From contig SUVP01000001.1 in NCBI GenBank assembly GCA_015061945.1, forward strand, positions 186,001 to 250,000: a stretch of DNA of 64,000 nucleotides, read 5' to 3'. How positions within the stretch are numbered: the first letter of the stretch is position 1; each line of letters starts with the position of its first letter. This stretch comes from Opitutales bacterium. GTDB taxonomy: Bacteria; Verrucomicrobiota; Verrucomicrobiia; Opitutales; Intestinicryptomonadaceae. Both the position numbers and the translations under genes were made by a program. The notes beneath the pieces were generated by a model. It ran no database searches, had not been told where the DNA came from, and saw nothing but the letters and a program-made list of their open reading frames with translations. Positions 14,378 to 52,386 of this stretch are shown here, piece by piece.

Positions 14378-14460
14378 GTGTCCGCAAAAAAATAGAAGAT
14401 TTTGTTGAAATAATGCCGATATTTATTTTTATAGATAACGTAAAACATCAAAATAATTTT

Positions 14461-15828
14461 ATGAAAAAACTAAAAGTTTTGTCTGTGTCGGCTGTCGTTG
14501 TTTGGGCGTCAGGTTATTTTTTGGTTTCAAACTTTTCGGGTCTCCCCAATGTCGAACCCGACAAAATGCCTCTTGCAGTTCTCGAACAAGCTGGTTGCGT
14601 AATGTGCCACTCTAAAGAAGCAACGCAACCATTTTACGCACACGTTCCAATCGCTGGTCAACTCATAAAGACCGATATGGAAGAAGGCTTGAAACACTTT
14701 GATATTACACCAACTATTGAAGAATTAAAAGCTGGTAAAATTGTAAACGAAACTGCACTCGCAAAAATCGAACATTCTATTAACGATAACTCGATGCCTC
14801 CGCTCCGCTTCTCAATCGTACACTGGACATCATCGCTGAACAAGGCAAAGAAACAAGTACTGCTCGATTGGATTGCAAGCGAACGCAAAAAATTAAATGC
14901 AAATACTGGCATCGCAAAAAAATTTGAAAACGAACCTGTATGGCCTGTCGTTGCACCAAAGAATATCGACGCTCGCAAAGTTAAGTTGGGTTCTATTCTC
15001 TATCACCACACTGCCCTTTCTGGCGACGAAACTGTTTCGTGTGCAACTTGCCACCCACTCGACAAAGGTGGTGCCGACGGCTTGCAAACTTCAACTGGTA
15101 TCAGAAAACAAAAAGGCGACATCAACGCTCCAACAGTTTACAACGCCGTCTTTAACCACAGACAATTCTGGGACGGACGTGCCGATAACTTGCAATCGCA
15201 AGCAGGCGGACCGCCTCTCAATCCTGTTGAAATGGACGGTGGCGATTGGGATAAAATCGCAAAACGCCTCGAAAAAGATTCCGCTTTTGCAAAAGAATTT
15301 AAGGCAGTTTATCCAGACGGATTTACTGAAAAAAATATCACCGACGCAATCGCAGAGTTTGAATCGACACTCGTTACAGTTGATAGCGATTTCGACTTGT
15401 TCCTCAAAGGCGACGAAAACGCAATGAGCGAAAATGCCAAAAAAGGCTACAAGCTTTTCAAAGATATGGGTTGTGCAGTTTGCCACTCTGGACGCAATCT
15501 CGGTGGACAAACATTTGAATATATGGGCTTAAAAGCCGACTATTTCAAGGAACGTGGGAATGTTGGAAAAATCAACGACAAAGGTTTGGTATCTTTCACA
15601 AAAGATGAACGTGATACTCATAAGTTCAAAACACCAACACTTCGCAACGTGTCGTTAACAGCTCCATATTTCCACGACGGCTCAACATCTAACCTCAAAG
15701 AAGCTGTCGAAATTATGGCAAAATTCCAACGCGATAAAAATCTTTCTGACGAAGAAATTGCCGATATCGTAAAGTTCCTCGAATCGCTAACTGGGAAACT
15801 CAACGGCAAAAAGCTCGAAAAGAAATAA
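14461..15828 (+). CDS. Tri-heme cytochrome c peroxidase
   Basis: 455 residues from the ATG at 14461; the frame opens 16 codons earlier, but that extension spoils the N-terminal membrane anchor (about 6-24). There are three haem c sites, C-V-M-C-H (46-50), C-A-T-C-H (194-198) and C-A-V-C-H (338-342). The N-terminal 150 residues form a separate haem-binding domain, and the last 300 are the di-haem CcpA/MauG-like peroxidase with N-A-P-T-V-Y-N, F-W-D-G-R and T-P-T-L-R-N-V motifs. It should reduce hydrogen peroxide in the periplasm with electrons from the quinol or cytochrome pool. The extra haem domain suggests direct feeding from the membrane. It is a single-gene unit flanked by terminators; placement after the bat operon fits an oxidative-stress theme. 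Confidence 0.92.
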   Translation: MKKLKVLSVSAVVVWASGYFLVSNFSGLPNVEPDKMPLAVLEQAGCVMCHSKEATQPFYAHVPIAGQLIKTDMEEGLKHFDITPTIEELKAGKIVNETALAKIEHSINDNSMPPLRFSIVHWTSSLNKAKKQVLLDWIASERKKLNANTGIAKKFENEPVWPVVAPKNIDARKVKLGSILYHHTALSGDETVSCATCHPLDKGGADGLQTSTGIRKQKGDINAPTVYNAVFNHRQFWDGRADNLQSQAGGPPLNPVEMDGGDWDKIAKRLEKDSAFAKEFKAVYPDGFTEKNITDAIAEFESTLVTVDSDFDLFLKGDENAMSENAKKGYKLFKDMGCAVCHSGRNLGGQTFEYMGLKADYFKERGNVGKINDKGLVSFTKDERDTHKFKTPTLRNVSLTAPYFHDGSTSNLKEAVEIMAKFQRDKNLSDEEIADIVKFLESLTGKLNGKKLEKK

Positions 15829-36900: not shown

Positions 36901-37237
36901 GTCGCTTGACGACAAAAAAATCGAAGAAAGCAATCGCCTCATATTTGCCTATATGACTCAAGAAGCAAATAGTGAAATGGAGGCATCGTTCGACCAATTT
37001 TACTTGGTAAAAATGGGTAATGCACCAATACTTTTGAGAACTGGAAAGCTCAAAGCCGAACTCAAACTCGACCCGAACAAAACTTACAAACTCTATCCCC
37101 TTTCGTTAAACGGCGAGCGTCGAGCAGAAATTCCGTGCGACTTCAAAAACGGCATTTTGAAAATCGAAATAGATACTCACGCACTTCCAAATGGTCCAAC
37201 TACACTCTTTGAAGTAGTCTCAAGTAATGATAAATAA
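33944..37237 (+). CDS. Large secreted glycoside hydrolase (GH5/GH42-like TIM barrel)
   Basis: 1097 residues with a signal peptide (about 1-21, ending L-L-A-Q). An AAAGGAAA sits before the start codon. Residues about 25-190 are beta-rich and may bind carbohydrate. Another beta region runs to about 410, then a TIM barrel: G-Y-N-C-V-R-I-D-F-D-F-I, Y-I-H-Y-V-L-A-W-R-D, and Q-V-E-Y-F-N-E (about 563-569) whose N-E pair fits the clan A acid/base. G-I-T-E-Y-N near residue 738 is a candidate nucleophile position. The C-terminal 250 residues are beta-rich. The exact GH family and substrate are uncertain. The next gene overlaps it by 11 bp, so a shared substrate is likely. Confidence 0.82.
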   Translation: MKTLIYTLFTALLISPLSLLAQKNLQNCATRITITCDYPFENVSSNGTKLNNFSYNKNGKRKYVLQDYRLNKDPNKWEEFSISFTPTQNAPVSVLINGVSVKTKSTTSRATSLIDNLKLNGELVENGDFEKDLETFSCTKDKQLPVRIEQSPNLVKFGKKCVSVWAKTIVSKKFNAQKGEPMRFSVMTKPRGEVITYDSMLDFSEHANAQSPFANKPNVFFEGLKFDGQKSIDVNKEITFNINKKGQYGDYLYVLHTFDGLQNADDKVCAVVVIRNSDGKVVKYDLKSSEEALDTNQVKLAYNAKPVFYADKKNKKGAIYLSRFATPSNAPIKSITFAPRKIAQWKVFSATISDQDVRPYECWKPTPDQWKIADIQKNNIVIKNSALDLTHFFHDGEAGKYGRIIVSERGTFAFENAPDKDVRLKSFSLNSYQFREGKSPKRYKRLKEYAELIKRSGYNCVRIDFDFIRDPSVAKKLDDNMDMLDYFMAELKKNGVYIHYVLAWRDLGLKKTSKQYERDEMKMRCIFLEPEAVEGWKKWTTYLLNHKNPYTNLALKDDPQIVQVEYFNEFSITLGRMNRMPKHIQAYTYDVFRKWLKEKYKTIENLNSAWNTQGFYAKNGGANYTSFDEVKDAVAHNHDWMIFAAESRHKFFEICTKTVRGTGYKGIIASENMGGYPLAIPLKNRDFDSIIGNTYYSHPKGFDYTNTSCSQDSSIGSAFPNIFNLTYNNFNDRPAGITEYNYCFWNQHRYEIPATYPLYASYQNFSMMTIHEDAVPNMDAIEMPYRKEINPFRTQNSPILRASEVFSTALFVRQDITPATPTVEIDMSKENLASLPSQIRRFDDFDARLSLLTGVRLKVYGERPANIKKVKVAPALHTIKPNSDDKSLSFNKWLERVYQGNMSGSTLPQNIEKLRELGILDKSNKTDITKGVFHSDTKEILLDAKNKMLKAITPKTELLTGKVLKNQKLDNLKVVSSSIPASVGVMSLDDKKIEESNRLIFAYMTQEANSEMEASFDQFYLVKMGNAPILLRTGKLKAELKLDPNKTYKLYPLSLNGERRAEIPCDFKNGILKIEIDTHALPNGPTTLFEVVSSNDK

Positions 37238-39008
37238 AATAATACTTACTTTTTTAATCGCACACGCAACACTATTTGCACTCGCACTTGAAAATGCGAC
37301 ACTTTACATCACAAAGTTAAATGGTGATGTCGAAGAACGTCGCGTTAAGTTAGAGAAAATCGAAGAAAATATTTGGAGATTTAAATTACCCAAAGAACAA
37401 ATTTCTAAAGATACAAAGTATATATCCATCTTGAACGATTGGGCGATTGCACGCAAAGGCGAAGACGGATTTTTCCTTACCCAACAAGGCGAATATGGTA
37501 CGTTTCGACAAGACGAAGGCAAAGTTGAAGTAAAACGACAACCTGTGCAAGTTTTCGGAATGAAAACGCCAAGAGGCTGTTTTGCGTCGATAATTAAAGG
37601 TCTTAAATTAGAATACACGCAATTTGTTGATATCAAAAATGGAGTCTACAAAATGTATCCACGCTTCGATATTGCCGATATTGAATTTGCCCCATACGAA
37701 GACATCATTATAGATTTCTACAAACTAACACCTGAAAAATCTAATTACTCGGCAATAGCCGAAGTTTATCGCAATTACGTTTTATCAACCGGTAAAGTGA
37801 TTCCGCTTTCCGAAAGAATTAAAGGCAATCCGACACTGAAAAATTCAGCTGAAACAATGTTCGTGCGAATAAAATTCGGGCGTTGCGACCGTCGTTCAGC
37901 ACCAAGCAAAAAATGGAAACAAGCTGGATACAAACCGAAAATGGTTGTCGACCACACTTTTGATGACGCAAAAAAAATTATGCAGAATCTGAAAAATCTG
38001 GGTATGGATGATGTAGAAATCTGCTTTGTCGGTTGGCATAAAGATGGACACGACGGACCTTTCCCTGATTTATTCCCTGTTCCCAGCGAATTTGGTGGCG
38101 AAGAAAAAATGAAAGAAGCTGTTGCGTTCGGTAAATCACTCGGATACAGAATGACCGTTCATACAAATCACCACAACTATTACGCACACGCAAAACGATT
38201 CAATCCCGACTACACAAATAAAAATCCGGACGGCTCATTGCGTGTTTACAGATATTGGCCCGGAGGTAAAGCATATCACTCATGCTTCAAAACTGTCTTG
38301 GATAAATATCTCGACGAAGACATAAAACGATTGAAAGAAATTGGAATCAATGGAACCTATCACGTTGATGTGACAAGCGTACGCAAGCCGACACAATGTT
38401 GCAACAAATTGCATCCTCTCAACAAACAACAAATGGCAGATGTGCAAAATGAAATCGGTAGAAAACTGCGTAAACACTTTGGCGGATTTAGCTCTGAAGG
38501 CAAAATGGATCACGTTGCAGAAACGCTCGACTACGGTCTCTACACCCGTTGGACCGCAACTTATTTACGCAACAATGCTATCGATAAAGATGTCCCCTTG
38601 AATGAACTTGTATACAACGGGATAATTTTGAGTAATCCATATTATGCCACTATCGATGCACCATACGAACGCAAAAAAACAGAAAGACTTTCTGACGCAA
38701 ACAAACCTTACTCAATTATGGGTACGCCAACAAAAGCGTGCTTAAAAGTTATTGAATGGGGAGGTCGCCCTACATTCTACTACATAGATTATTCCAACCT
38801 AAAACCTATGCTCGATTTTTATCAAGAGTGGCAAAAGCTAAAATATCTTCAATATCATTTTATGATATTCCACGATGAAATTTCTCAAGACGTATTTGTA
38901 TCAAAATGGAGTAATGGCGATGAAATTATTACAAATTACTCCGACAAAATTTTCTCTTATAAAAATCAAAAAGTAGAGCCACTCTCTTATCGACTCTACA
39001 AAAAATAA
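37227..39008 (+). CDS. Secreted TIM-barrel glycoside hydrolase-like protein (DUF5696-type)
   Basis: 593 residues with a signal peptide (M-I-N-K-I-I-L-T-F, ending L-F-A-L-A). An N-terminal beta domain (about 22-190) is followed by a barrel with D-V-E-I-C-F-V-G-W-H-K-D-G-H-D-G, G-Y-R-M-T-V-H-T-N-H-H-N-Y-Y and Y-H-V-D-V-T-S strands, and F-S-S-E-G-K-M-D. This pattern resembles DUF5696/GH101-like proteins of host-associated bacteria, but I cannot fix the family. The Asp in H-V-D-V and the Glu in S-S-E-G are plausible catalytic residues. It starts inside the end of the upstream hydrolase gene, so the two are translationally coupled. Confidence 0.75.
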   Translation: MINKIILTFLIAHATLFALALENATLYITKLNGDVEERRVKLEKIEENIWRFKLPKEQISKDTKYISILNDWAIARKGEDGFFLTQQGEYGTFRQDEGKVEVKRQPVQVFGMKTPRGCFASIIKGLKLEYTQFVDIKNGVYKMYPRFDIADIEFAPYEDIIIDFYKLTPEKSNYSAIAEVYRNYVLSTGKVIPLSERIKGNPTLKNSAETMFVRIKFGRCDRRSAPSKKWKQAGYKPKMVVDHTFDDAKKIMQNLKNLGMDDVEICFVGWHKDGHDGPFPDLFPVPSEFGGEEKMKEAVAFGKSLGYRMTVHTNHHNYYAHAKRFNPDYTNKNPDGSLRVYRYWPGGKAYHSCFKTVLDKYLDEDIKRLKEIGINGTYHVDVTSVRKPTQCCNKLHPLNKQQMADVQNEIGRKLRKHFGGFSSEGKMDHVAETLDYGLYTRWTATYLRNNAIDKDVPLNELVYNGIILSNPYYATIDAPYERKKTERLSDANKPYSIMGTPTKACLKVIEWGGRPTFYYIDYSNLKPMLDFYQEWQKLKYLQYHFMIFHDEISQDVFVSKWSNGDEIITNYSDKIFSYKNQKVEPLSYRLYKK

Positions 39009-40901: not shown

Positions 40902-42152
40902 TTACTTGTCGTCGCCACGCAACTGACCAATAGCAATGCCTGTGAGCTTGTAAGAAATTAAGCCCAAGTCGTACTCAGAACCACCGAAGTGGAATGTGCG
41001 TTGAATGTGGAACTGACTCTTCCCTGCGTCGAGCGAAAGTGCTGGCGAGTGAGTCGAGATTTCATAGAATGGGTCTGCCACAACCGAAGTTTTCGCAAGT
41101 GGACCATTGTTGTAGACGCTAATTGCATCGCCATTGAAACGTGCTGTATTTCCACGCCACGAGTTGCGTAAATAAGCACGTGTTGAGTCAGCTGGCTTTA
41201 TGTATAAGATTACAGTCAAAACTTGATTTTTTGCATCGTACGAAACAACAATACCTTCGCTTCGTTTAGCCGAAACGCCGAAACCAGCCATCTTTCTGCC
41301 ATCTGCATTAAACGATATATACGATGGGTCGATAAGCATACGGCCGTCGCCCGTTGCCGATTCATCCATAAAATCTTCACGAACAATTTCGCCGAGTTGC
41401 GAGACTTCTCCAGCTCTGTACGGAATAAACACACGAACTTTTTTGTTCGCATTAAAGCAAGATTGCACGCTGATATTCAAAAGCCCCGAGTTAATTGTCC
41501 ACTTCGATTTTCCGAGATTTGTAAGTTTATTGAAAGATTGGAAACCAACCAATTTTACGGTCGATGGGATTTCTATTCCCAAAATTTCCGAAACTTGCGA
41601 ACGATTCAAGACAGTGATTTCACGTTCAGCTCGCACGACAAAACATTGACCTTTTGCATTTTCAAAATCTGCATTTTTCTCAAACTTTGCTTGAGTCTTT
41701 GACGATGCCACAAGCTTCCATGGGTCGAGCGAGAAACCAGCTGGGGCACGCCAATTTTCAGACGAAAAACTTGCACCTTGCGGGAAGAAAATCGAATAGT
41801 CGCCACCTTGCGGACCGACCCAAAATCTGTCTTCGCCACCTACTTGATAAGTTTGCAAGCCGATTTTATTATCAGCTAAAAGCTCGTGATTTATCCAGCC
41901 GAGCGACGGACCTTCGACTCCCCCAAAAGTTGAAGTAAGAATTCTTCCTTGATATTTTGGGGAGACAGCGACCAACGAATCGCCCTCGCCGAGAATAAGG
42001 ACGTCAGATTTGTATTGAGAAAAGAATTTCAAGTCTTGCCCGAATGCGAGAAGATTTTGTTCAGCCTTATCGAGCGATGCTTCTTTAATTATACCACAAC
42101 CGCCCAACGCAGAGGCGATTGCAACAAGAGCCAATAGATAAAAATTTTTCAT
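40902..42152 (-). CDS. Lipoprotein of unknown function (DUF6786-like)
   Basis: 416 residues from the ATG ending at 42152, which gives a lipoprotein signal peptide with lipobox L-G-G-C (Cys about 19). The frame opens 13 codons earlier, in a stretch that is not signal-like. The mature part is beta-rich with W-I-N-H-E-L, F-W-V-G-P-Q-G-G, G-F-Q-S-F-N-K-L-T-N and a closing H-F-G-G-S-E motif. This pattern resembles DUF6786 proteins that I associate with carbohydrate-related loci, possibly with a galactose mutarotase-like fold. That link is tentative. It lies downstream of putP on the same strand. Confidence 0.7.
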   Translation of the reverse strand: MKNFYLLALVAIASALGGCGIIKEASLDKAEQNLLAFGQDLKFFSQYKSDVLILGEGDSLVAVSPKYQGRILTSTFGGVEGPSLGWINHELLADNKIGLQTYQVGGEDRFWVGPQGGDYSIFFPQGASFSSENWRAPAGFSLDPWKLVASSKTQAKFEKNADFENAKGQCFVVRAEREITVLNRSQVSEILGIEIPSTVKLVGFQSFNKLTNLGKSKWTINSGLLNISVQSCFNANKKVRVFIPYRAGEVSQLGEIVREDFMDESATGDGRMLIDPSYISFNADGRKMAGFGVSAKRSEGIVVSYDAKNQVLTVILYIKPADSTRAYLRNSWRGNTARFNGDAISVYNNGPLAKTSVVADPFYEISTHSPALSLDAGKSQFHIQRTFHFGGSEYDLGLISYKLTGIAIGQLRGDDK

Positions 42153-42212
42153 TCCAAATAAATTGTCATATCCGCCCCCACACTTCAACACTTTTTTATT
42201 TCACTTTTGTGC

Positions 42213-43691
42213 TTATTTATCGTGCAAAGTTGAAAGCATTTTGTCGAACTGATTTAAGATGTGCGTATTTCTTTGTGGAAAGAATTTTGATATCATATAA
42301 ATCGTGATTATCCCAGCGATGAACGCAGGCATAATTTCGTAAAGATATTTTCCAAGTCCAGAAAAATTCCATAACAACATCACTATTGTACCCACAAGCA
42401 TCCCGCAAAGAGCCGATTGATAGGTCATCCGACGCATATAAAGCGACATAACTACTACTGGACCAAACGCTGCTCCAAATCCGCCCCACGCAAATGTTAC
42501 AAGCGAAAATATCGTCTCATTCGGATTCAATGCCAATATGCATGCTACAAAAGTTATCCCTGTAACCAAAAATCTGTTCACCAACAAAAGCTCTTTTTCG
42601 CTCGCATTTTTTCTCACAACAAATGCGTAAAAATCTTGTGCAAGTGCCGTCGACGACGCCAACAGTTGCGAGTCTATAGTCGACATAATCGCAGCGAGAA
42701 TCGCAGCAAGAATCAATCCGCCAATCCATGGGTTGAAGAAATCCATCGCCATTTTGATGAAGATTTTTTCGCTATCTTGCGTCGACAAAACAGGATTGTC
42801 GTAAATGGGAATCGCAAAAAGCCCAATAATTACTGCCATCGCAAGAGAAATAATAACCCATATCAACGCAATATTCGCCGACTTCGACAATTCTTTGTGC
42901 GACGAAATACTCATAAATCGACTCAAGATGTGTGGTTGCCCAAAATATCCAAAGCCCCACGCACTCATTGATATAATCGATAACAACCCGAGCCACCCAG
43001 ACTCTTTCGGGAAAATCGAAAGCGATAAATCCCGAGCTTTACAAGTTTCTTGCAAGGCATTTTCAGGCGTGTGCATATACGCAACCACCGGAACGATAAT
43101 CAGTGCGAAGAACATAAACGCACCTTGAATCATATCAGTCTTGCAAACGGCTTGATACCCTCCGAGCAAAGTATACGCAAGGATTACCCCAGCCCCCAAC
43201 AAGACAGCAAGAGTGTAATCGATATTGAACATCGAGTCGAAAAGTTTTCCGGTTGCGACGAGTCCACTCCCTGCATAAATCGTAAAAAATCCGAGAGTGA
43301 TGAACGCAGCAATCAGACGCAATACGCCCGACTTATCGTCAAATCGATTCGAGAAGAACGACGATATCGTAAGGCTTTGTGTCAATTCAGTGTAAATGCG
43401 GAGTCGTTTTGAGATTAGGAACCAATTCAGAGCCGTTCCGACAAAAAGCCCGATAGCGATCCAAATATTGCAAAGCCCAGAAATATATACGACTCCAGGA
43501 AGTCCCATAAGGAGCCAACCGCTCATATCGCTTGCCTGAGCCGAGAGGGCAGTTACCCAACTCCCCATCGATCGACCGCCCAAGACATAACCATCAACCG
43601 TACCTTTTTTCTCAATACACGACACCCCGATAAAAATCATCATCGCCAGATAAAGAGCAAACATTATATATAAAGGAAAAATATCATTCAT
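42213..43691 (-). CDS. putP: Sodium:proline symporter family transporter
   Basis: 492 residues; the ATG ending at 43691 follows GAGGGG at close spacing. There are about 13 membrane helices. Family motifs of the sodium:solute symporters can be seen: G-Y-V-L-G-G-R-S-M-G-S-W-V-T-A-L-S-A-Q-A-S-D-M-S-G-W near residues 35-60 (in PutP this includes the sodium site), then A-Y-T-L-L-G-G-Y-Q-A-V and A-A-I-M-S-T-I-D-S-Q-L-L. PutP takes up proline with sodium. The residues favour proline over sugars, but this is inferred. It is the first gene of a minus-strand group of four. Confidence 0.9.
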   Translation of the reverse strand: MNDIFPLYIMFALYLAMMIFIGVSCIEKKGTVDGYVLGGRSMGSWVTALSAQASDMSGWLLMGLPGVVYISGLCNIWIAIGLFVGTALNWFLISKRLRIYTELTQSLTISSFFSNRFDDKSGVLRLIAAFITLGFFTIYAGSGLVATGKLFDSMFNIDYTLAVLLGAGVILAYTLLGGYQAVCKTDMIQGAFMFFALIIVPVVAYMHTPENALQETCKARDLSLSIFPKESGWLGLLSIISMSAWGFGYFGQPHILSRFMSISSHKELSKSANIALIWVIISLAMAVIIGLFAIPIYDNPVLSTQDSEKIFIKMAMDFFNPWIGGLILAAILAAIMSTIDSQLLASSTALAQDFYAFVVRKNASEKELLLVNRFLVTGITFVACILALNPNETIFSLVTFAWGGFGAAFGPVVVMSLYMRRMTYQSALCGMLVGTIVMLLWNFSGLGKYLYEIMPAFIAGIITIYMISKFFPQRNTHILNQFDKMLSTLHDK

Positions 43692-44504: not shown

Positions 44505-45812
44505 CTACATCGACGCCGTATAAACAAAGTCGGGTTGCGATTTTTTGCCTGCCATATCGAAAAATTCGAGCTTGATATTTTCTTCGCTTATGTGGACAAA
44601 CATCGCCTCTTTATGCGAATTCACGACCGTCGGATAATGTACTTTTCCGTCTTCAGCGTTAACAGCTCTCATCAGTTGTGCTTTTAATTTTTCGGTTGTT
44701 CGATAAAGTTCTCGAGCGTCGCTTCCCTTCGGAAATATACAATGGCGGTGTAAGTGTCCGCAAAGTGCCATATCTATATTTGCGTCTTTCAGAACGTCAG
44801 ACAAGTGGAGATCTGTTTCGCTACGATATGCCAAATACTCGCCAACTGACGGTATATGTTGGATTGCAATTCGGTATTTCGCACTCTTAAATTCGGGAAG
44901 TTTTACAATTTCTCGCAACCACTTAACTTCTTCGTTTCGATATTTTGAATAATTGTTGAGATATTCGCCTTCTTTTGATGAATCGGGCTTATCTTCGCAA
45001 AGATCGAGGAATAAGAAAAATGCAGGTCCTGCCTTAAATGCAAAATAAGTTTTTCCTGTCGGAGTCGGGAAATATTTGAAATAGTCTTCGGCAGTTTGTC
45101 CACGAGTTTCGTGATTACCACGCAAATAGTAGACAGGCTTTACACCCTTGAGATTTTCAGCAATCACACCGACTGAACGTTTAAACAAACGTTCTTCTTC
45201 CATCATATAATTTACGGTATCGCCATTGACGACAAGAAAATCGTAATTATCGTTTGGAAATGCCTTGAACAATTTATTGATTTTCCCGACATTCTCATGG
45301 AGATCATTTACCATCGCAAACGTTAGCGTTTTGCTTTCCGTTTTTGGAAGTGTAAATTTTAGTGGAGTGCCGTCGACGTTTTTCTCGAGCGTGATTGTTT
45401 TCCCCAAGACAGTTTCGCCATATTTATCCTTTGGCGACTTCCTATAATTCCAGTACTTGATGACCTCTTTAGCGACTATCTTATAGAAGTAAGTTTTGCC
45501 ATTTTTAAGTCCGTCGATTTTTATATTGTGGATTGTCCCGACGTGTTTACGCCCTGTTAATTCGGACTCCACAAAGAGAACAGGTTCTTTAAAATCTGCA
45601 TCATCATCGCTCCAAACATAAACATCTGCGAGCGACAATTTGTTCACAGGGAACACGACAAATACGCAATCTGTACCGCCTCCGCATAGGTACGGAGTTG
45701 CTATAATTTCAAAATCTGCCGAGCTATCGGCTACAACTTTTCTTGTAGCCAATGCTTTTGCCGATGCTAAAAAAGTAGTAGCTGTTGCGAGTATAAAATT
45801 GCGTCTTAACAT
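44505..45812 (-). CDS. Tat-exported calcineurin-like metallophosphoesterase
   Basis: 435 residues. The N terminus M-L-R-R-N-F-I-L-A and hydrophobic stretch ending in A-L-A fit a twin-arginine signal. A fibronectin-like beta domain (about 30-155) precedes the phosphoesterase core. Metal motifs are M-V-N-D-L-H (D-x-H-like), V-V-N-G-D, Y-L-R-G-N-H-E, then H-I-P and C-G-H-L-H-R. This is the purple acid phosphatase-like architecture. The substrate is unknown. It starts two bases after the stop codon of the eight-heme cytochrome gene, so it belongs to that operon. Confidence 0.87.
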   Translation of the reverse strand: MLRRNFILATATTFLASAKALATRKVVADSSADFEIIATPYLCGGGTDCVFVVFPVNKLSLADVYVWSDDDADFKEPVLFVESELTGRKHVGTIHNIKIDGLKNGKTYFYKIVAKEVIKYWNYRKSPKDKYGETVLGKTITLEKNVDGTPLKFTLPKTESKTLTFAMVNDLHENVGKINKLFKAFPNDNYDFLVVNGDTVNYMMEEERLFKRSVGVIAENLKGVKPVYYLRGNHETRGQTAEDYFKYFPTPTGKTYFAFKAGPAFFLFLDLCEDKPDSSKEGEYLNNYSKYRNEEVKWLREIVKLPEFKSAKYRIAIQHIPSVGEYLAYRSETDLHLSDVLKDANIDMALCGHLHRHCIFPKGSDARELYRTTEKLKAQLMRAVNAEDGKVHYPTVVNSHKEAMFVHISEENIKLEFFDMAGKKSQPDFVYTASM

Positions 45813-45814
45813 AT

Positions 45815-46798
45815 TTATTTTTTAGAGATAAATTGCGGGCATTTACCACTTTTAAATTTATATTTTTCTTCTTTTGAATCGTGGCATTTTATGCACGAGT
45901 CTGATGCTGAATTAGAGTGTGGATCGTGGCAGACAACGCAACTCATACCTTCGTGAACTCCAACTGGAGTGCGATCGTCCGATGTTCCAACTTCCCGTTT
46001 CCAATTTGGCGAGTGGCAATTTGAGCAGAGTTTCGACGATGGGTCGTCTGAAGTTTTCACTTCTTTTCCATTCAAATAGCGTTTTACATTTGTCAACATA
46101 TCTGTTCTAAAATGTGCCTTATCGGCACGAGAATAGAATGATGTTTTAGGGATATCGCAAGCTGGTGTTTTCGATTTTCTGCAATTTTCAAAGTTTGGCA
46201 ACTTTGGTTTTTCAGAGTGAATCTGGTGGCAAGCCATACAAGGAATTGCTGGGAGTTGACACTGCTTTGTATCTTTAATTTTCCACTTTGTGCAATCGTC
46301 GCTATCGAAGTTCATCAGCGTATTGATATTACCTTCGTAGAACATACCATGGCAACGGAAACAATCCCAATAAGGTTTTTCTTGTGAGTTATGAATTTTA
46401 TCTTCAAAGATATTTGCGTATGTTGTAGAGTGAGCCCCTTTCTTCCACTTCGCAACTTCATCTTTGTGGCAGTTTGCACAACGCTTCATAATATCCAAAC
46501 GTTGAGCTTCGGTCAGTTTGATATCGCCATTTTTCACGTCTTTTGTGAAGTGCGATACGACCATACCCAACTTTTCTTTTACACTATGAATACCATTTGA
46601 AATTGCCGTCCCATGACACTTTACGCACGCTACTTTTGAGTGTATGGAATTTTTCCACTTTTGGTGTGTCGGTTTAATTTCATGACATTGCGCACAAGTA
46701 TATTCTGGGTCGAGAACATTCCATGTTGAATATCCAGCGAATGCAAAAACTGCCAAAAGGGCAAAAATCAATCCGTATGTAAAAATAATTTTTTTCAT
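45815..46798 (-). CDS. Eight-heme membrane-anchored cytochrome c (NapC/NirT-like start)
   Basis: 327 residues from the ATG ending at 46798; an 18-codon extension upstream is not signal-like and runs into the GMC gene. One N-terminal helix (about 4-22) anchors it. Eight C-x-x-C-H haem sites lie at about residues 35, 58, 107, 146, 187, 258, 287 and 302. The first part (C-A-Q-C-H, H-x-x-W-x-x-S-x-H, C-V-K-C-H) resembles NapC/NirT quinol dehydrogenases. It probably passes electrons from the GMC oxidoreductase encoded immediately upstream, either to quinone or on to other carriers. In gluconate dehydrogenase-type complexes a tri-heme cytochrome is usual; eight haems are unusual here. The whole family is uncertain beyond the haem content. 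Confidence 0.88.
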   Translation of the reverse strand: MKKIIFTYGLIFALLAVFAFAGYSTWNVLDPEYTCAQCHEIKPTHQKWKNSIHSKVACVKCHGTAISNGIHSVKEKLGMVVSHFTKDVKNGDIKLTEAQRLDIMKRCANCHKDEVAKWKKGAHSTTYANIFEDKIHNSQEKPYWDCFRCHGMFYEGNINTLMNFDSDDCTKWKIKDTKQCQLPAIPCMACHQIHSEKPKLPNFENCRKSKTPACDIPKTSFYSRADKAHFRTDMLTNVKRYLNGKEVKTSDDPSSKLCSNCHSPNWKREVGTSDDRTPVGVHEGMSCVVCHDPHSNSASDSCIKCHDSKEEKYKFKSGKCPQFISKK

Positions 46799-46800
46799 TA

Positions 46801-48432
46801 TTATGCCTTTCCGAATGTTTTTGCGATATGTGCACCTGTACGGAACGCACAAGCCATAATTGTTAGGACAGGATTAAATCCGCCATTAGAAACGTGAACT
46901 GAACCATCGCCGATAAAAACGTTATCGGTACCCCAAATTTTACAGTTGGAATCGACAACCGACGTCTTTGGGTCATTTCCCATACGGCATGTACCTGCTT
47001 GGTGTTGACCACCAGCGTTTGGATAATTCAAATTAGGTTTTCGATTTTGTTGCCATACGGTTTTTGCACCAGCCTCGCGTAAGATTGCGGCGGCGGCATC
47101 CGTCATAATCTCACACTGTTTTACAGTTAACGGATGTTTCTTTCCTGATTCTTTTAACATTGGCAACCCAAACCAATTTCGTTTCGACTCATCGAGAACA
47201 ACACGCGATTCAAACATCGGTATTTCTTGAACTGGTCCAACTATACGAAGAATTCTTTTATAATTTTCTCTTTGGAATTTCTTGTGTTCGGCACCCCATC
47301 TTGGAGCTCCCCAAGGACGCATTTTTGAGCGTGCCCATGGCAACGTATAGAACTCTGAACAAAGAGCCCCTGCGAAAATCCCCTTGCTTGCGTTGTGGTT
47401 AAAATCAGAAATTGCGACGCTCGCACCAGGTCCTGTTTCAGACGATACGTCATAGTCGAAAACACCGGCGGCACCGCAATAAACGTGAGAATTTATACAA
47501 CGCCCAACCATATCATTTTGGTTGCCCAAGCCAGTCGGGAACAATTCCGATTTCGACATAAACAAAAGCTTTGATGTTTCTCGAGCATTTGCGGCAACAA
47601 CGACAATATCAGCTGGCTGGAAATGTTCGCCACGTTCATCATCAAAATATTTTACCCCGATAGCTCTGCGACCTTTCATCACAACTTCGTATGCGAGCGA
47701 GTTTGTGCGAACTTCGCAATTACCAGTTTTCATTGCGACAGGGATAACCGAGTTTTGCGTTCCATTTTTTGCATCGCAAGGGCAAGCATAACCGCAACAA
47801 GTGTGATTGCGTTGGCACGCTGCACGCCCATTATACTTCACAGAATTGCGGAGCATCGGGATTGGGAATGGGTGGAAGCCCAAGCGTTTCATCGCTGGAA
47901 TAATAACTTCGGCATCTTCCCTATTATATTCAAACGCTGGCATTGGGAATGGTTTTTTGCGTGGCGGTGCAAATGGATTTGTCGACATATCGCCCGACAC
48001 GCCTACTTCGTATTCAGCCTGTTGATAAAATGGCTCAAGCTCATCGTATGTGATTGGCCAGTCAGCCAACGCCGAGTCTTTGATTTCTGGATACAAAGTT
48101 TTCAGCTTAAAATCTTGTGGCATAAAACGCCAACCCATTGCACCGTATGTTACAGTACCCGAACCTACACAAGCGGCAATATCAACAGTCAAAGGCATCC
48201 ACGATTTTCTGCCGATTTCCCCGTGCTTTGCGACATCTGGTCCATGCAAGCTTCGGATTGCGTGCGTACGTTGGTTTATCAATTCATCATTTGTAGATTC
48301 TTCGTAATCGTGCCATCCGCCACGTTCGAGAAGTACGCATTTTAAACCAGCAGTAGCGAGTTGCTTTGCAACGCAACCACCACCTGCACCAGCACCGACA
48401 ATAACAGCATCAACTTTTTCGTGCGTAGTCAT
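46801..48432 (-). CDS. GMC-family FAD sugar oxidoreductase (gluconate/glucoside dehydrogenase-like)
   Basis: 543 residues. The FAD site G-A-G-A-G-G-G begins at residue 13, followed by E-R-G-G-W near 36. A G-S-G-T-V-T-Y-G-A-M-G-W-R-F motif, a Cys-rich segment C-G-Y-A-C-P-C near 212-222, H-Q-A-G-T-C-R-M-G near 477 and the closing G-D-G-S-V, G-G-F-N-P-V-L-T-I-M motif fit the bacterial GMC large subunits. No signal peptide is seen; such subunits are exported together with the Tat-tagged small subunit, whose gene lies directly upstream and overlaps it by one base. The family oxidises sugars, sugar acids or glycosides; a glucoside 3-dehydrogenase role is inferred. Confidence 0.92.
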   Translation of the reverse strand: MTTHEKVDAVIVGAGAGGGCVAKQLATAGLKCVLLERGGWHDYEESTNDELINQRTHAIRSLHGPDVAKHGEIGRKSWMPLTVDIAACVGSGTVTYGAMGWRFMPQDFKLKTLYPEIKDSALADWPITYDELEPFYQQAEYEVGVSGDMSTNPFAPPRKKPFPMPAFEYNREDAEVIIPAMKRLGFHPFPIPMLRNSVKYNGRAACQRNHTCCGYACPCDAKNGTQNSVIPVAMKTGNCEVRTNSLAYEVVMKGRRAIGVKYFDDERGEHFQPADIVVVAANARETSKLLFMSKSELFPTGLGNQNDMVGRCINSHVYCGAAGVFDYDVSSETGPGASVAISDFNHNASKGIFAGALCSEFYTLPWARSKMRPWGAPRWGAEHKKFQRENYKRILRIVGPVQEIPMFESRVVLDESKRNWFGLPMLKESGKKHPLTVKQCEIMTDAAAAILREAGAKTVWQQNRKPNLNYPNAGGQHQAGTCRMGNDPKTSVVDSNCKIWGTDNVFIGDGSVHVSNGGFNPVLTIMACAFRTGAHIAKTFGKA

Positions 48433-48977
48433 TATGCGTTCCCTCCGTATCTATTTTGTCCGAGTACATGTGGCATATCGATTCCGCACATTCTATACGA
48501 CATATAATTTTTGTTTCCACCATGGCGTGGAGGTCCGTAAAAACCTTGCATCGAACGTGTGAGCATTTCTTCAAAGAAATATTGTTGATTGATTTTTGTC
48601 CAATCTTCCCTTGATAGTTTACCTCTTTCCATTTGTTTCAGGAAATTAGTTTGCGTATTAAAATCGAGCTCTTGGAAATTTTTTGAATACAATCTTTGTG
48701 CCGATTTCTGCATACTTTCAACACCATTCTTAAAAATCGGCAACGATGTTGGGTGATACTTTGTTACCCAATTTTCGATATAATTGATAACGCCAGCTTC
48801 GGTTGCTCCGCCCCACTCTTCATCTGCTGGGATGAATTGTTCTGCCATTGCAATCAAGCAATCTCTTTCCGATTTTGTGAATGGTTGTTGCGATGCCTCA
48901 GATGGATTGCAACCATAAAGTGCAACTCCAGCCGAGACTGCAAGCGATGTTTTTATAAACGTTCTTCTTGTAGCCAT
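48432..48977 (-). CDS. Gluconate 2-dehydrogenase subunit 3-type Tat lipoprotein
   Basis: 181 residues. The Tat motif T-R-R-T-F-I-K (RR at 4-5) is followed by a hydrophobic stretch and L-Y-G-C (Cys 23), suggesting a Tat-exported lipoprotein. The mature part has A-M-A-E-Q-F-I-P-A-D and G-A-T-E-A-G-V-I-N-Y-I, typical of the subunit 3 family. It is the small partner that carries the GMC flavoprotein across the membrane. Its stop codon overlaps the GMC start by one base (TAATG), which makes translational coupling likely. Confidence 0.9.
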   Translation of the reverse strand: MATRRTFIKTSLAVSAGVALYGCNPSEASQQPFTKSERDCLIAMAEQFIPADEEWGGATEAGVINYIENWVTKYHPTSLPIFKNGVESMQKSAQRLYSKNFQELDFNTQTNFLKQMERGKLSREDWTKINQQYFFEEMLTRSMQGFYGPPRHGGNKNYMSYRMCGIDMPHVLGQNRYGGNA

Positions 48978-49044: not shown

Positions 49045-49995
49045 TTATTTTTTTGGAAGTTCGATAGATGTGGTGTCTGCTTGCAAATCTCCGCAACAAA
49101 ATTGGAGCATACGCATATGGAATTCTTGAACTTTTGGGTCGAGATAATTGTTCTCGGCATGTCCGATGACAGAATACGCAACTCGCCCTTTTCCGAACGA
49201 TTTTATATAAGCTGTCGCATAGTCGCCTTCGGGATAAATTTTGTTTTGTCCCTTTGTTGTGATAGGGCTTCGCTTCGTATCAATACGCATAAGAACTCTG
49301 CATTTTTTGCGATCGTATGATTTACCAAGCAGATAAATTTCGTCTCTAATTTTGAAACTATCGCCTTGCCAAATTCCCTTTGTGATTGGCGATTGCGTGT
49401 CGTCGATAACAAATGTAACAGGCTTATTAGAGATATACCAAGGGTGCGATATGAACTCGCCACCGAGCATTTCAACAAAGGCAGAATTGCGAATATTCTT
49501 GTGATTGTAGCAATCTACACCTGCATGCAAAGCGAAAATCGATCCGCCATTTTTAACATAATCGATGATATTCGCACAAATTTTGTCCGACTTTTTTACA
49601 ATCGCCTTACGCTTTTCTTCTGGCATTTTTGCGAGCTCTTTTGGGCTTTCACCAAAACACATTCCCGTTGAATTATTCAGGACAACACAATCAAATTTCT
49701 TGAGATTTTCTGGTGTAAAATTTTCTAAATCATCTGAAATAACAGTCTGCCAAGCACCAAGCTTGTCCCCGATATTTTTGAAAGCTAACTTCACAGCTGG
49801 GATACCTTCGGTATGTCGCCAACCTTTTGTTCTCGAGAATATGAGAATCTTGCGTGGCTGAATTGGCTTTACCGCACTTTTCGGACAAGCGTTGCAAATT
49901 GCATCGGCTTTCTTTGATAAATCGGCATCAGGTTTTACTTTTGCAAATGAGACAACACATACAAAAGCTGTCAAAAGTATGATTATTTTTTTCAT
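49045..49995 (-). CDS. ThuA-like secreted protein
   Basis: 316 residues with a signal peptide (M-K-K-I-I-I-L-L-T-A, ending S-F-A). The core has K-I-L-I-F-S-R-T-K-G-W-R-H-T-E-G-I-P, C-V-V-L-N-N-S-T-G, then G-S-I-F-A-L-H-A-G-V-D-C-Y, G-G-E-F-I-S-H-P and a closing V-I-G-H-A-E-N-N-Y. These are hallmarks of the ThuA/trehalose-utilisation-like fold (class I glutamine amidotransferase-like). ThuA-type proteins accompany 3-keto-sugar metabolism genes such as thuB; the enzymatic step is unsettled. The gene sits within the GMC-cytochrome operon, 67 bp upstream of subunit 3. Confidence 0.9.
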   Translation of the reverse strand: MKKIIILLTAFVCVVSFAKVKPDADLSKKADAICNACPKSAVKPIQPRKILIFSRTKGWRHTEGIPAVKLAFKNIGDKLGAWQTVISDDLENFTPENLKKFDCVVLNNSTGMCFGESPKELAKMPEEKRKAIVKKSDKICANIIDYVKNGGSIFALHAGVDCYNHKNIRNSAFVEMLGGEFISHPWYISNKPVTFVIDDTQSPITKGIWQGDSFKIRDEIYLLGKSYDRKKCRVLMRIDTKRSPITTKGQNKIYPEGDYATAYIKSFGKGRVAYSVIGHAENNYLDPKVQEFHMRMLQFCCGDLQADTTSIELPKK

Positions 49996-50011: not shown

Positions 50012-51028
50012 TTATTTGCCCAATATTTTCAACACTGCTTTTTGATAAGGCGATTCTATCTTTGCATATTCCTTGAGAATATCTACAACTTGTTTTTTTG
50101 AAGAATCGTCCATACGCATCAATGCTGATGTCAAAATTTTAACATAAAAAGGTAATTCTTTTACATCTAACTTTGTAAAATTTTGTGCAAGTTTTAATGC
50201 AGTATAATTATTTGCGACAACTTCAAGACTTATCTTTAATTCTTTTGTATAACTTTCAGAATTCTTTTCAAAAAGTTGGTTATAAAGGATGTCTTCGGCT
50301 TCGCTAACACGACCAATTCTTGAGGCAATAACGGCAAACTCTTTCTTTGCTTTTATGCCGTCTAAAATTACATCTGTTGAATCTTTGCAAAGACCTAAAG
50401 GATATGCCATATAAACATTTTTCTTCGTAGAAATTTCAAATATTTTCTCTGCCGATTTTTTACCACCGAACTTTGAAAGTACATTGCATTGAGCTTTTAA
50501 AACTCGGCTTGTTTTCCCTTCGTATGCAAGCATAAACTCGATATTTTTTTCACACGTTTCAAGTGAGTATATCGCACTTACAATTTCATTTTCGTCGTTC
50601 GATTCACTAATCAATTTGCGAAGTTTATCTTGCGATGGCAATGGCGAAGCCATAAACAATGCACTCTTTGCTACCTTTGAGCCATTGGCAACAAGTTTCT
50701 GCAAAATCGGCAAAGTTCCGTCGTACTTGGCAAGTCCGAGTATAACAGCTGGACACTCATCTAATTTTTCAAACGCGAGCTTCTCGAGAATCGGGAGGGC
50801 TTGCTCGCACTTCATACATGCCAACGAATACAAAATGCCATCTCTAATCTCTGGACGCTTTTCATTCTGCAACGCTTTCAACAAAGCAGATGTATCCATT
50901 TGGCGATGCAGTTCAAGACGGACGTTGTCGGCAATTTTTAAATCGGCATTAGATATATCAGCAATCTCATCTGCACCTGCACATACAGCTGACACACCTA
51001 AAATAAAATTAACTAAAAATCTTTTCAT
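50012..51028 (-). CDS. Secreted HEAT-like repeat protein
   Basis: 338 residues with a signal peptide (about 1-18, ending C-A-G-A). The rest is alpha-helical, with HEAT-like pairs such as L-L-K-A-L-Q-N-E-K-R-P-E-I-R-D-G-I-L and A-L-P-I-L-E-K-L-A. No catalytic motif is seen; such proteins are usually scaffolds. It lies between the ThuA gene and the Gfo/Idh/MocA gene, two bases from the latter, so it is part of the operon. A role in holding the envelope oxidoreductases together is possible but untested. Confidence 0.8.
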   Translation of the reverse strand: MKRFLVNFILGVSAVCAGADEIADISNADLKIADNVRLELHRQMDTSALLKALQNEKRPEIRDGILYSLACMKCEQALPILEKLAFEKLDECPAVILGLAKYDGTLPILQKLVANGSKVAKSALFMASPLPSQDKLRKLISESNDENEIVSAIYSLETCEKNIEFMLAYEGKTSRVLKAQCNVLSKFGGKKSAEKIFEISTKKNVYMAYPLGLCKDSTDVILDGIKAKKEFAVIASRIGRVSEAEDILYNQLFEKNSESYTKELKISLEVVANNYTALKLAQNFTKLDVKELPFYVKILTSALMRMDDSSKKQVVDILKEYAKIESPYQKAVLKILGK

Positions 51029-51030
51029 AA

Positions 51031-52320
51031 TTATACCCCCAAGAAATATGGATATCTGCGTGGACGCGAAAGCATAGCTTCGGCTTCTTTGTTATCAATC
51101 ACTTTTTCTGTATTAGGATCCCACTTAACATGTTTGCCAATTCTGCTTGAAATCGACATCAAATGGCATATTGTCGCACTGCGATGACCTACTTCAACAG
51201 GGCTAACATTCTGTTTCCCGAAACGAATTGCATCTATAAAATCAAGTCGATGATCGATTGACACCTGCAATCTTTCGTCAGAACTTTTCAATGTAAGATT
51301 TTTCAAATTGCGTGGAGTTGTATCAAAACGTTGAGCGCGCGAGACAAAAATTTCACCTTCATCGCCAATAAACTGAATCATGTGATTTTTTGGGATTGGA
51401 GCATTTACATAAACACCAATTCCGTTTGCATACTTGTAGTGTCGATACGGTGAACCGTCTGTGTTTGCAGGGTAAAAATCAGTTGGACCAGAATTATCCA
51501 TACCCAATGCCCACTGAATAATGTCGAAATGATGTGCGCCCCAATCGCCATCTTTACGTTGTCCATACTCATAAAAGCAACGCCAGCCACCAGAATAATC
51601 GCCCAAAACACGAAATGAATTGTAAGGACGATATGGAGTTTGTCCGAGCCATGCATCGTAATCAAATCCATCGGGAATTTTTTCTTCTGGAAGATTTTTC
51701 GGTGGTTGTGGAAACACACCAATTTGCGTGTTAATTCGTTTAATATTTCCAATATATCCATTGCGTACAAATTCTGACGCTTTACGGAATGCCCACTCAC
51801 TACGTTGCTGTGTGCCTACTTGCAAGATACCATTCTTGCGTTTCACTGCATCTGAAAGAATACGCCCTTCTTCAACAGTCAAGCTCATCGGTTTTTCAAC
51901 GTAAACAGCCTTGCCCATTTCGATAGCTTTTAATGCAATCGCAACGTGCCAATGGTCTGGAGTTGCAACACATACAGCATCGATATCATCGCGCTCGATA
52001 ACATCTTGGTAGCGTGTGTATGCGTCAATCGGCTTAAATCCAGTATCTGTGCGAGATTTAGTGATTTCTTCTGCTTCTTTTTTTGCACTAATCAATCTAC
52101 CTTGATGAACATCGCACACAGCAAAAATTTGCGTTTCTGTCGCCCTTGCAAAATATCTGCGATGCCCTCTTGAAATCAATCCATTGCCAATAATCGCCAT
52201 ATTTATTCTACCACTTGGAGATACTCCTCCTCTACCAAGTACACGCGATGGCACAATCTGAACACCCAGCATCGACAACGCAGTGCATTTTGCAAAACTT
52301 CTTCTACTGATTTTTTTCAT
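51031..52320 (-). CDS. Tat-exported Gfo/Idh/MocA-family oxidoreductase
   Basis: 429 residues from the ATG ending at 52320 (a TTG two codons upstream is less likely). The N terminus has a very good twin-arginine motif S-R-R-S-F-A-K (RR at 6-7). The Rossmann region has I-I-G-N-G-L-I-S-R-G-H, then V-C-V-A-T-P-D-H-W-H and the family Lys in V-E-K-P-M (about 131-135). A second half carries G-W-R-C-F-Y-E-Y-G-Q-R-K-D-G-D-W-G-A-H-H. Tat export of a folded, cofactor-loaded enzyme is typical of the secreted Gfo/Idh/MocA group in Verrucomicrobia and Planctomycetes. It probably interconverts sugar hydroxyl and keto groups with bound NAD(P). Confidence 0.9.
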   Translation of the reverse strand: MKKISRRSFAKCTALSMLGVQIVPSRVLGRGGVSPSGRINMAIIGNGLISRGHRRYFARATETQIFAVCDVHQGRLISAKKEAEEITKSRTDTGFKPIDAYTRYQDVIERDDIDAVCVATPDHWHVAIALKAIEMGKAVYVEKPMSLTVEEGRILSDAVKRKNGILQVGTQQRSEWAFRKASEFVRNGYIGNIKRINTQIGVFPQPPKNLPEEKIPDGFDYDAWLGQTPYRPYNSFRVLGDYSGGWRCFYEYGQRKDGDWGAHHFDIIQWALGMDNSGPTDFYPANTDGSPYRHYKYANGIGVYVNAPIPKNHMIQFIGDEGEIFVSRAQRFDTTPRNLKNLTLKSSDERLQVSIDHRLDFIDAIRFGKQNVSPVEVGHRSATICHLMSISSRIGKHVKWDPNTEKVIDNKEAEAMLSRPRRYPYFLGV

Positions 52321-52386
52321 ATTCAATTTAGTTATTAAATGGATTTTCTCCGTTATAAAGTTTGTCGGATAGACTATAAATTCTAA

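Follow-up and report, generated by a model that had tools for sequence, protein, structure and literature searches.

A GMC dehydrogenase gene cluster with an NrfH-like multiheme cytochrome in an Opitutales genome

The genes at the locus and their products

The window, i.e. the whole stretch of 64,000 nucleotides that was analysed, carries on its minus strand three adjoining genes for subunit 3, a GMC flavoprotein dehydrogenase and a multiheme cytochrome c. They belong to a putative operon running from 52326 to 44505, the extent of which was judged by spacing and strand only. By this measure, the operon starts with genes for a Gfo/Idh/MocA oxidoreductase (51031..52326, PF01408 and PF19051), a HEAT-repeat-like protein (50012..51028, weak PF13646 match) and a ThuA-domain protein (49045..49995, PF06283 at 101.5 bits), followed by the three genes named above. 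It ends with a metallophosphoesterase gene (44505..45812, PF00149 at 68.3 bits) located two bases behind the cytochrome gene, and an AraC-type regulator is encoded upstream. The Gfo/Idh/MocA protein partially matched the NCBIfam glycoside 3-dehydrogenase model BT_2158_fam, scoring 146 bits where the cut-off is 750. Downstream of the operon, at a distance of about 780 bp, a sodium/proline symporter PutP is encoded on the minus strand (42213-43691; 573 bits, above the NCBIfam cut-off). A DUF5696/GH101-like protein (37227-39008, plus strand) and a DUF6786 protein (40902-42191, minus strand) are possibly further carbohydrate-related proteins.

The GMC protein (46801..48432, minus strand), the catalytic subunit, matched PF05199 and PF00732 over the cut-off, and no signal peptide was seen in it. 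Its closest solved structures were FAD glucose dehydrogenase 6a2u (E 7.5e-49) and fructose dehydrogenase 8xcm (E 2.6e-45). The catalytic residues His477 and Asn520 were found in 76 of 77 GMC rows of the family, the remaining row being gapped there. Cys206, Cys212 and Cys217 (47782..47817, minus strand), the predicted ligands of a 3Fe-4S cluster, were invariant in all 77 family GMCs. Allowing a one-residue gap that is placed differently in the printed alignment, they align with Cys212, Cys218 and Cys222 of the B. cepacia FAD glucose dehydrogenase, which are the cluster ligands of that enzyme (PMC6719666). Similar cysteine triads were also found in GMC proteins without a nearby cytochrome, so the triad is a trait of the wider GMC family and is in itself no sign of a cytochrome acceptor.

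Subunit 3 (48432..48977, minus strand; Gluconate_2-dh3, the "hitchhiker") gave 77.7 bits with PF13618 and is the sole match to this model in the genome. The twin-arginine signal model scored 22.0 bits, slightly below its cut-off of 22.7; the RR motif is present, likewise in most of the relatives shown, and a signal of this kind is what a hitchhiker should carry.

The cytochrome gene (45815..46798, minus strand) has an ATG start and encodes 327 amino acids. Its ATG at 46798 follows the end of the GMC ORF at 46801 with two bases between, as an earlier note on this DNA had described. The eight CXXCH motifs that the same note placed behind a single anchor helix were found again after one N-terminal hydrophobic stretch, and their columns are conserved in relatives. 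These are CAQCH at residues 35-39 (46682..46696), CVKCH at 58-62 (46613..46627), CANCH at 107-111 (46466..46480), CFRCH at 146-150 (46349..46363), CMACH at 187-191 (46226..46240), CSNCH at 258-262 (46013..46027), CVVCH at 287-291 (45926..45940) and CIKCH at 302-306 (45881..45895), all on the minus strand. Most relatives have a ninth motif after these, which is absent here. Since a scan gave 214 loci with relatives and the motif columns showed little or no variation across the 75 aligned relatives, the ORF is not a chance one.

In the AlphaFold model of the cytochrome (pLDDT 85.7, pTM 0.81), residues 2-28 (46715..46795, minus strand) form an N-terminal helix that is probably an uncleaved membrane anchor. 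A 19-residue hydrophobic window above 1.6 was present in 73 of the 75 relatives, and an AxA site lay near that window in only 11 of them. The protein from the window has AFA at residues 19-21, so that its own N-terminus may be cleaved.

Fold and family of the cytochrome

The first part of the cytochrome, residues 11-150 with the helix and hemes 1-4 (46349..46768, minus strand), resembles NrfH. The TIGR03153 NrfH profile aligned over its positions 6-133 of 138 with an E-value of 7.2e-13 and 48.8 bits, which falls below the curated cut-off of 134.2 bits. Likewise, PF03264 (NNT) gave 17.5 bits, under its cut-off of 24.1. The NrfH profile matched 72 of the 75 family members, and when the family profile was searched against solved sequences NrfH 2j7a was the top match (E 5.2e-5). 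Foldseek placed the AlphaFold model on the same NrfH structure with a probability of 0.98 and an E-value of 0.037. The profile searches, at scores under the curated cut-offs, and the structure searches agree with the earlier description of a protein that starts like NapC/NirT and is longer than NapC or NrfH. The window cytochrome is the only match to a NapC/NirT profile in the genome (assembly 97% complete). Chains of the fructose dehydrogenase cytochrome gave no match to it at E-values up to 1.

Aligned as a whole with VIA-align, the model put octaheme nitrite reductases on top, with 8rv0 at Z 8.9 over 218 residues (rmsd 4.4), ahead of NrfH at Z 6.7 over 132 residues (rmsd 4.1); the program's own note cautions that Z values of such size are common. 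This ranking is what would speak for the cytochrome being itself an enzyme, a divergent octaheme reductase of the nitrite or hydroxylamine type that merely shares an operon with the GMC gene. Foldseek, however, returned E-values of only 2 to 3 for octaheme nitrite reductase structures. The CXXCK motif of their catalytic heme is absent, all eight motifs being CXXCH, and candidate ligand histidines are as many as the hemes in nine-heme members. Nor did a separate prediction of the C-terminal part (pLDDT 86) find a good match: its top hit in VIA-align was c552 5ze8 at Z 4.5 and the Foldseek E-value was 1.1. No close solved relative of this part was found with the two programs, a result that is not proof of a new fold. 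Together with the strict linkage to a GMC gene described below, these results make the enzyme reading very improbable. The earlier note had named an unambiguous hit to a characterised octaheme family of unrelated function as what would overturn its proposal; octaheme nitrite reductases gave only a moderate structural match. Because it has no CXXCK heme, the cytochrome looks like an electron carrier and not like an octaheme reductase.

Conservation of the module and variation in heme number

Genome contigs were scanned with a six-sequence alignment, and 80 of the 214 relatives were kept. A GMC relative was encoded on the same strand in all 80 loci and lay directly upstream of the cytochrome in 79 of them, with a median gap of 10 bp. 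The exception was a Dysgonomonadaceae relative (L036), in which a hybrid two-component regulator (L036:5312-9370) is located between the two genes. Subunit 3 was present in 72 of the 80 loci, which are all those with enough upstream sequence; in the other eight the contig extends no further than about 2 kb upstream of the cytochrome gene. This adjacency bears out the earlier proposal that the cytochrome is the partner of the GMC protein. Most of the carriers belong to Bacteroidota, and others to Verrucomicrobiota, Ignavibacteriota, Planctomycetota, Acidobacteriota and KSB1, at least five phyla besides that of the window; many of the genomes are metagenome-assembled. As judged from these sequences, the module is a widespread variant of the three-subunit GMC dehydrogenases that occurs beyond this genome. 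The combination of a GMC protein, subunit 3 and a multiheme cytochrome was not found in the literature searched, which covered few subscription papers.

The module is patchy in the phylum of the window: a strict threshold left 6 carriers among 387 genomes. In a sample of its class, six GMC proteins shared at least about 50% identity, the window's own included, and all were accompanied by a cytochrome. At the next 24 GMC loci of that sample, with identities of at most 35%, no same-strand CXXCH ORF longer than 80 aa was found within 1.5 kb. Of the nearest GMC proteins on plasmids (Deinococcus and Paenibacillus, 40-43%), those examined were fusions with subunit 3, and there was no adjoining cytochrome gene; at L153:3464-5623 and L154:3449-5581 subunit 3 and GMC form one protein of 710-719 aa. 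The cytochrome had no match on plasmids in PLSDB, and there was no match in PHROGs or PADLOC.

The gene neighbours were less constant. ThuA and Gfo/Idh/MocA neighbours recall 3-keto-glycoside pathways. Across 95 scanned neighbourhoods the contents varied, with Gfo/Idh in 7 and AP_endonuc_2 in 6, and GH106, GH127, GH92 and SusD were also seen. Reading a fixed substrate from the neighbours was therefore rejected, and only a general carbohydrate theme was retained. The metallophosphoesterase was not conserved in relatives; as ThuA and Gfo/Idh/MocA were not conserved even in close ones, we kept the substrate as a generic sugar or glycoside.

The earlier note had described an eight-heme cytochrome. 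This is true of the protein in the window but does not define the family, since nine hemes were counted in 55 of the 75 aligned relatives, eight in 10 and seven in 10. The clade of the window lacks the C-terminal ninth heme, and a gut Bacteroidales clade has seven. In the tree, the window falls within a clade of five Verrucomicrobiota, all with eight hemes (support 100/100). This clade is nested in one of 19 rows (100/99), the rest of which are Tannerellaceae, Dysgonomonadaceae and Prevotellaceae with seven to nine hemes. The arrangement suggests transfer between phyla and loss of hemes from the C-terminal end. Because the root is a midpoint, the direction is what we infer from this topology.

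In nine-heme members nine non-motif histidines are conserved, in the columns of residues 53, 71, 83, 123, 136, 194, 282 and 294 plus one in a part missing from the window protein; with nine hemes these are enough to serve as second ligands for all of them. Lineages that have lost hemes have also lost some of these histidines: rows without heme 1 lack His71 and His83, and six seven-heme rows lack His282. In the eight-heme clade (45815-45895 in the window; loci L031-L034) a common C-terminal Tyr-Lys/Arg...Cys tail replaces the His-bearing segment of the ninth heme, and seven-heme relatives retain a terminal VH. One heme of the window protein may have an unusual second ligand.

The proposed electron path and known systems

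The genome encodes two MqnA/MqnD-type proteins, i.e. menaquinone genes of the futalosine type, together with cytochrome bd, a b558-type succinate/fumarate cytochrome and the c-type maturation protein ResB. A heme-copper oxidase gave no match in the genome (assembly 97% complete). Given this respiratory gene set, menaquinone would be the simplest acceptor.

We propose that the products of the genes from 48977 to 45815 assemble into a single membrane-bound dehydrogenase complex in the periplasm, of the FAD glucose/fructose/lactose dehydrogenase type. Judging from known systems, subunit 3 with its twin-arginine signal would take the folded GMC protein across the membrane. There the GMC protein would oxidise an alcohol group of a sugar or glycoside, and electrons would pass from FAD to the predicted 3Fe-4S cluster and on to the multiheme cytochrome. 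The latter would stand in for the triheme, Met-ligated subunit, with an NrfH-like anchored tetraheme part and a C-terminal arm of four or five hemes. It would deliver the electrons to menaquinone, the chemistry of NapC/NrfH being run as a quinone reductase, and menaquinol would pass them to fumarate or cytochrome bd. That a NapC relative can feed quinone is known from the hydroxylamine:ubiquinone module with cM552 (PMC3701875). We consider it rather probable that the three-gene complex oxidises a sugar or glycoside and sends the electrons through its heme chain to menaquinone, and we infer complex formation, direction of flow, acceptor and substrate alike. The earlier proposal of a new outlet, possibly to quinone, is plausible and fits the respiratory genes.

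At heme 1, NrfH has CHxM. Of 75 family members, 63 have CHEI at this motif and just 3 have CHEM, so a quinone site cannot be assumed. Furthermore, neither heme 1 nor a clear anchor is present in the relatives from one Verrucomicrobiota family, which is hard to reconcile with direct contact to quinone in that family. The same complex might instead hand its electrons to a soluble or outer-membrane acceptor, such as a periplasmic cytochrome, a di-heme peroxidase or an extracellular compound, with the long heme arm as a relay. Seven to nine hemes exceed what a link from dehydrogenase to quinone would need, and besides the lineage without an anchor, the MtrC/MtrF domain model matched 38 of the 75 family members and a DmsE-type decaheme model weakly matched 58 of them. 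The genome also encodes a di-heme CCP/MauG-type protein with an extra Haem_bd domain (14413-15828, plus strand), which is unlinked to the module in relatives. Yet no relative of this peroxidase was present in any of the 80 homologous neighbourhoods, and the earlier suggestion that it is the acceptor was rejected. No porin-cytochrome conduit gene was seen recurring beside the module, which argues against the extracellular acceptor that had also been suggested. In addition, gut lineages have shed hemes of the C-terminal end and kept the NrfH-like end. On balance an acceptor other than quinone seems unlikely, if still worth keeping in mind.

Electrons could also run in reverse, from quinol through the cytochrome to the flavoprotein, which would make the GMC protein a respiratory reductase of an organic acceptor. 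NapC/NrfH proteins do usually oxidise quinol, and in the working model of a gut flavoprotein reductase of Eggerthella, Cgr1 is a membrane-anchored cytochrome of NapC/NirT type (PMC5953540). Cgr2, on the other hand, is not described as a GMC protein. To our knowledge, every GMC enzyme with subunit 3 that has been characterised is a dehydrogenase. They include FAD glucose dehydrogenase, fructose dehydrogenase and LacABC (PMC9007349), and we regard reverse flow as quite improbable.

Chances are about even that the module represents a widespread and previously undescribed class in which an NrfH-like cytochrome of 7-9 hemes replaces the triheme subunit and links the flavoenzyme directly to menaquinone, with which anaerobic gut and sediment bacteria would respire sugars in the periplasm, the heme chain having been shortened in gut lineages and the module having moved between Bacteroidota and Verrucomicrobiota. 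If true, periplasmic sugar oxidation would gain an electron outlet in Bacteroidales and Opitutales, among them gut species that, like this one, lack a heme-copper oxidase, and chemistry of the NapC/NrfH type would be linked with the oxidation of carbohydrates. For direct-electron-transfer biosensors, too, a GMC enzyme with a compact multiheme partner could be of interest.

The closest known dehydrogenases are the B. cepacia FAD glucose dehydrogenase and fructose dehydrogenase, which likewise combine a GMC protein with conserved Fe-S cysteines, a signal-bearing hitchhiker and a co-encoded c-type cytochrome. In the B. cepacia enzyme the cytochrome is triheme, with Met as sixth ligands (PMC5979317), whereas that of the window family is His-rich and NrfH-like with 7-9 hemes, and no relation between the two was detected. 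LacABC of Caulobacter is a three-component membrane-bound lactose 3-dehydrogenase that forms 3-keto sugars in the periplasm (PMC9007349). It shares the three-component make-up and the sugar-catabolism neighbours, a functional parallel only; oxidation at C3 is a feature of LacABC, for which the window system offers no more than hints from context (ThuA, Gfo/Idh). Among cytochromes, the tetraheme NrfH, NapC and cM552 resemble the window protein in the anchor helix and first four hemes, which fit the NrfH profile and structure. In contrast to them, the window family has four to five more hemes, a GMC partner, scores below the curated cut-offs and a heme-1 Met motif that is mostly replaced. Octaheme nitrite reductases (8rv0, 3ttb) share the eight hemes, and the overall structural alignment is moderate (Z 8.9, a value of a common size); the window cytochrome has no CXXCK, carries an N-terminal anchor and is almost 200 residues shorter. 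Cgr1/Cgr2 of Eggerthella lenta (PMC5953540) also pairs an anchored NapC/NirT-like cytochrome with a flavoprotein encoded alongside it, although the flavoprotein is a different one and the proposed direction of the electrons is opposite.
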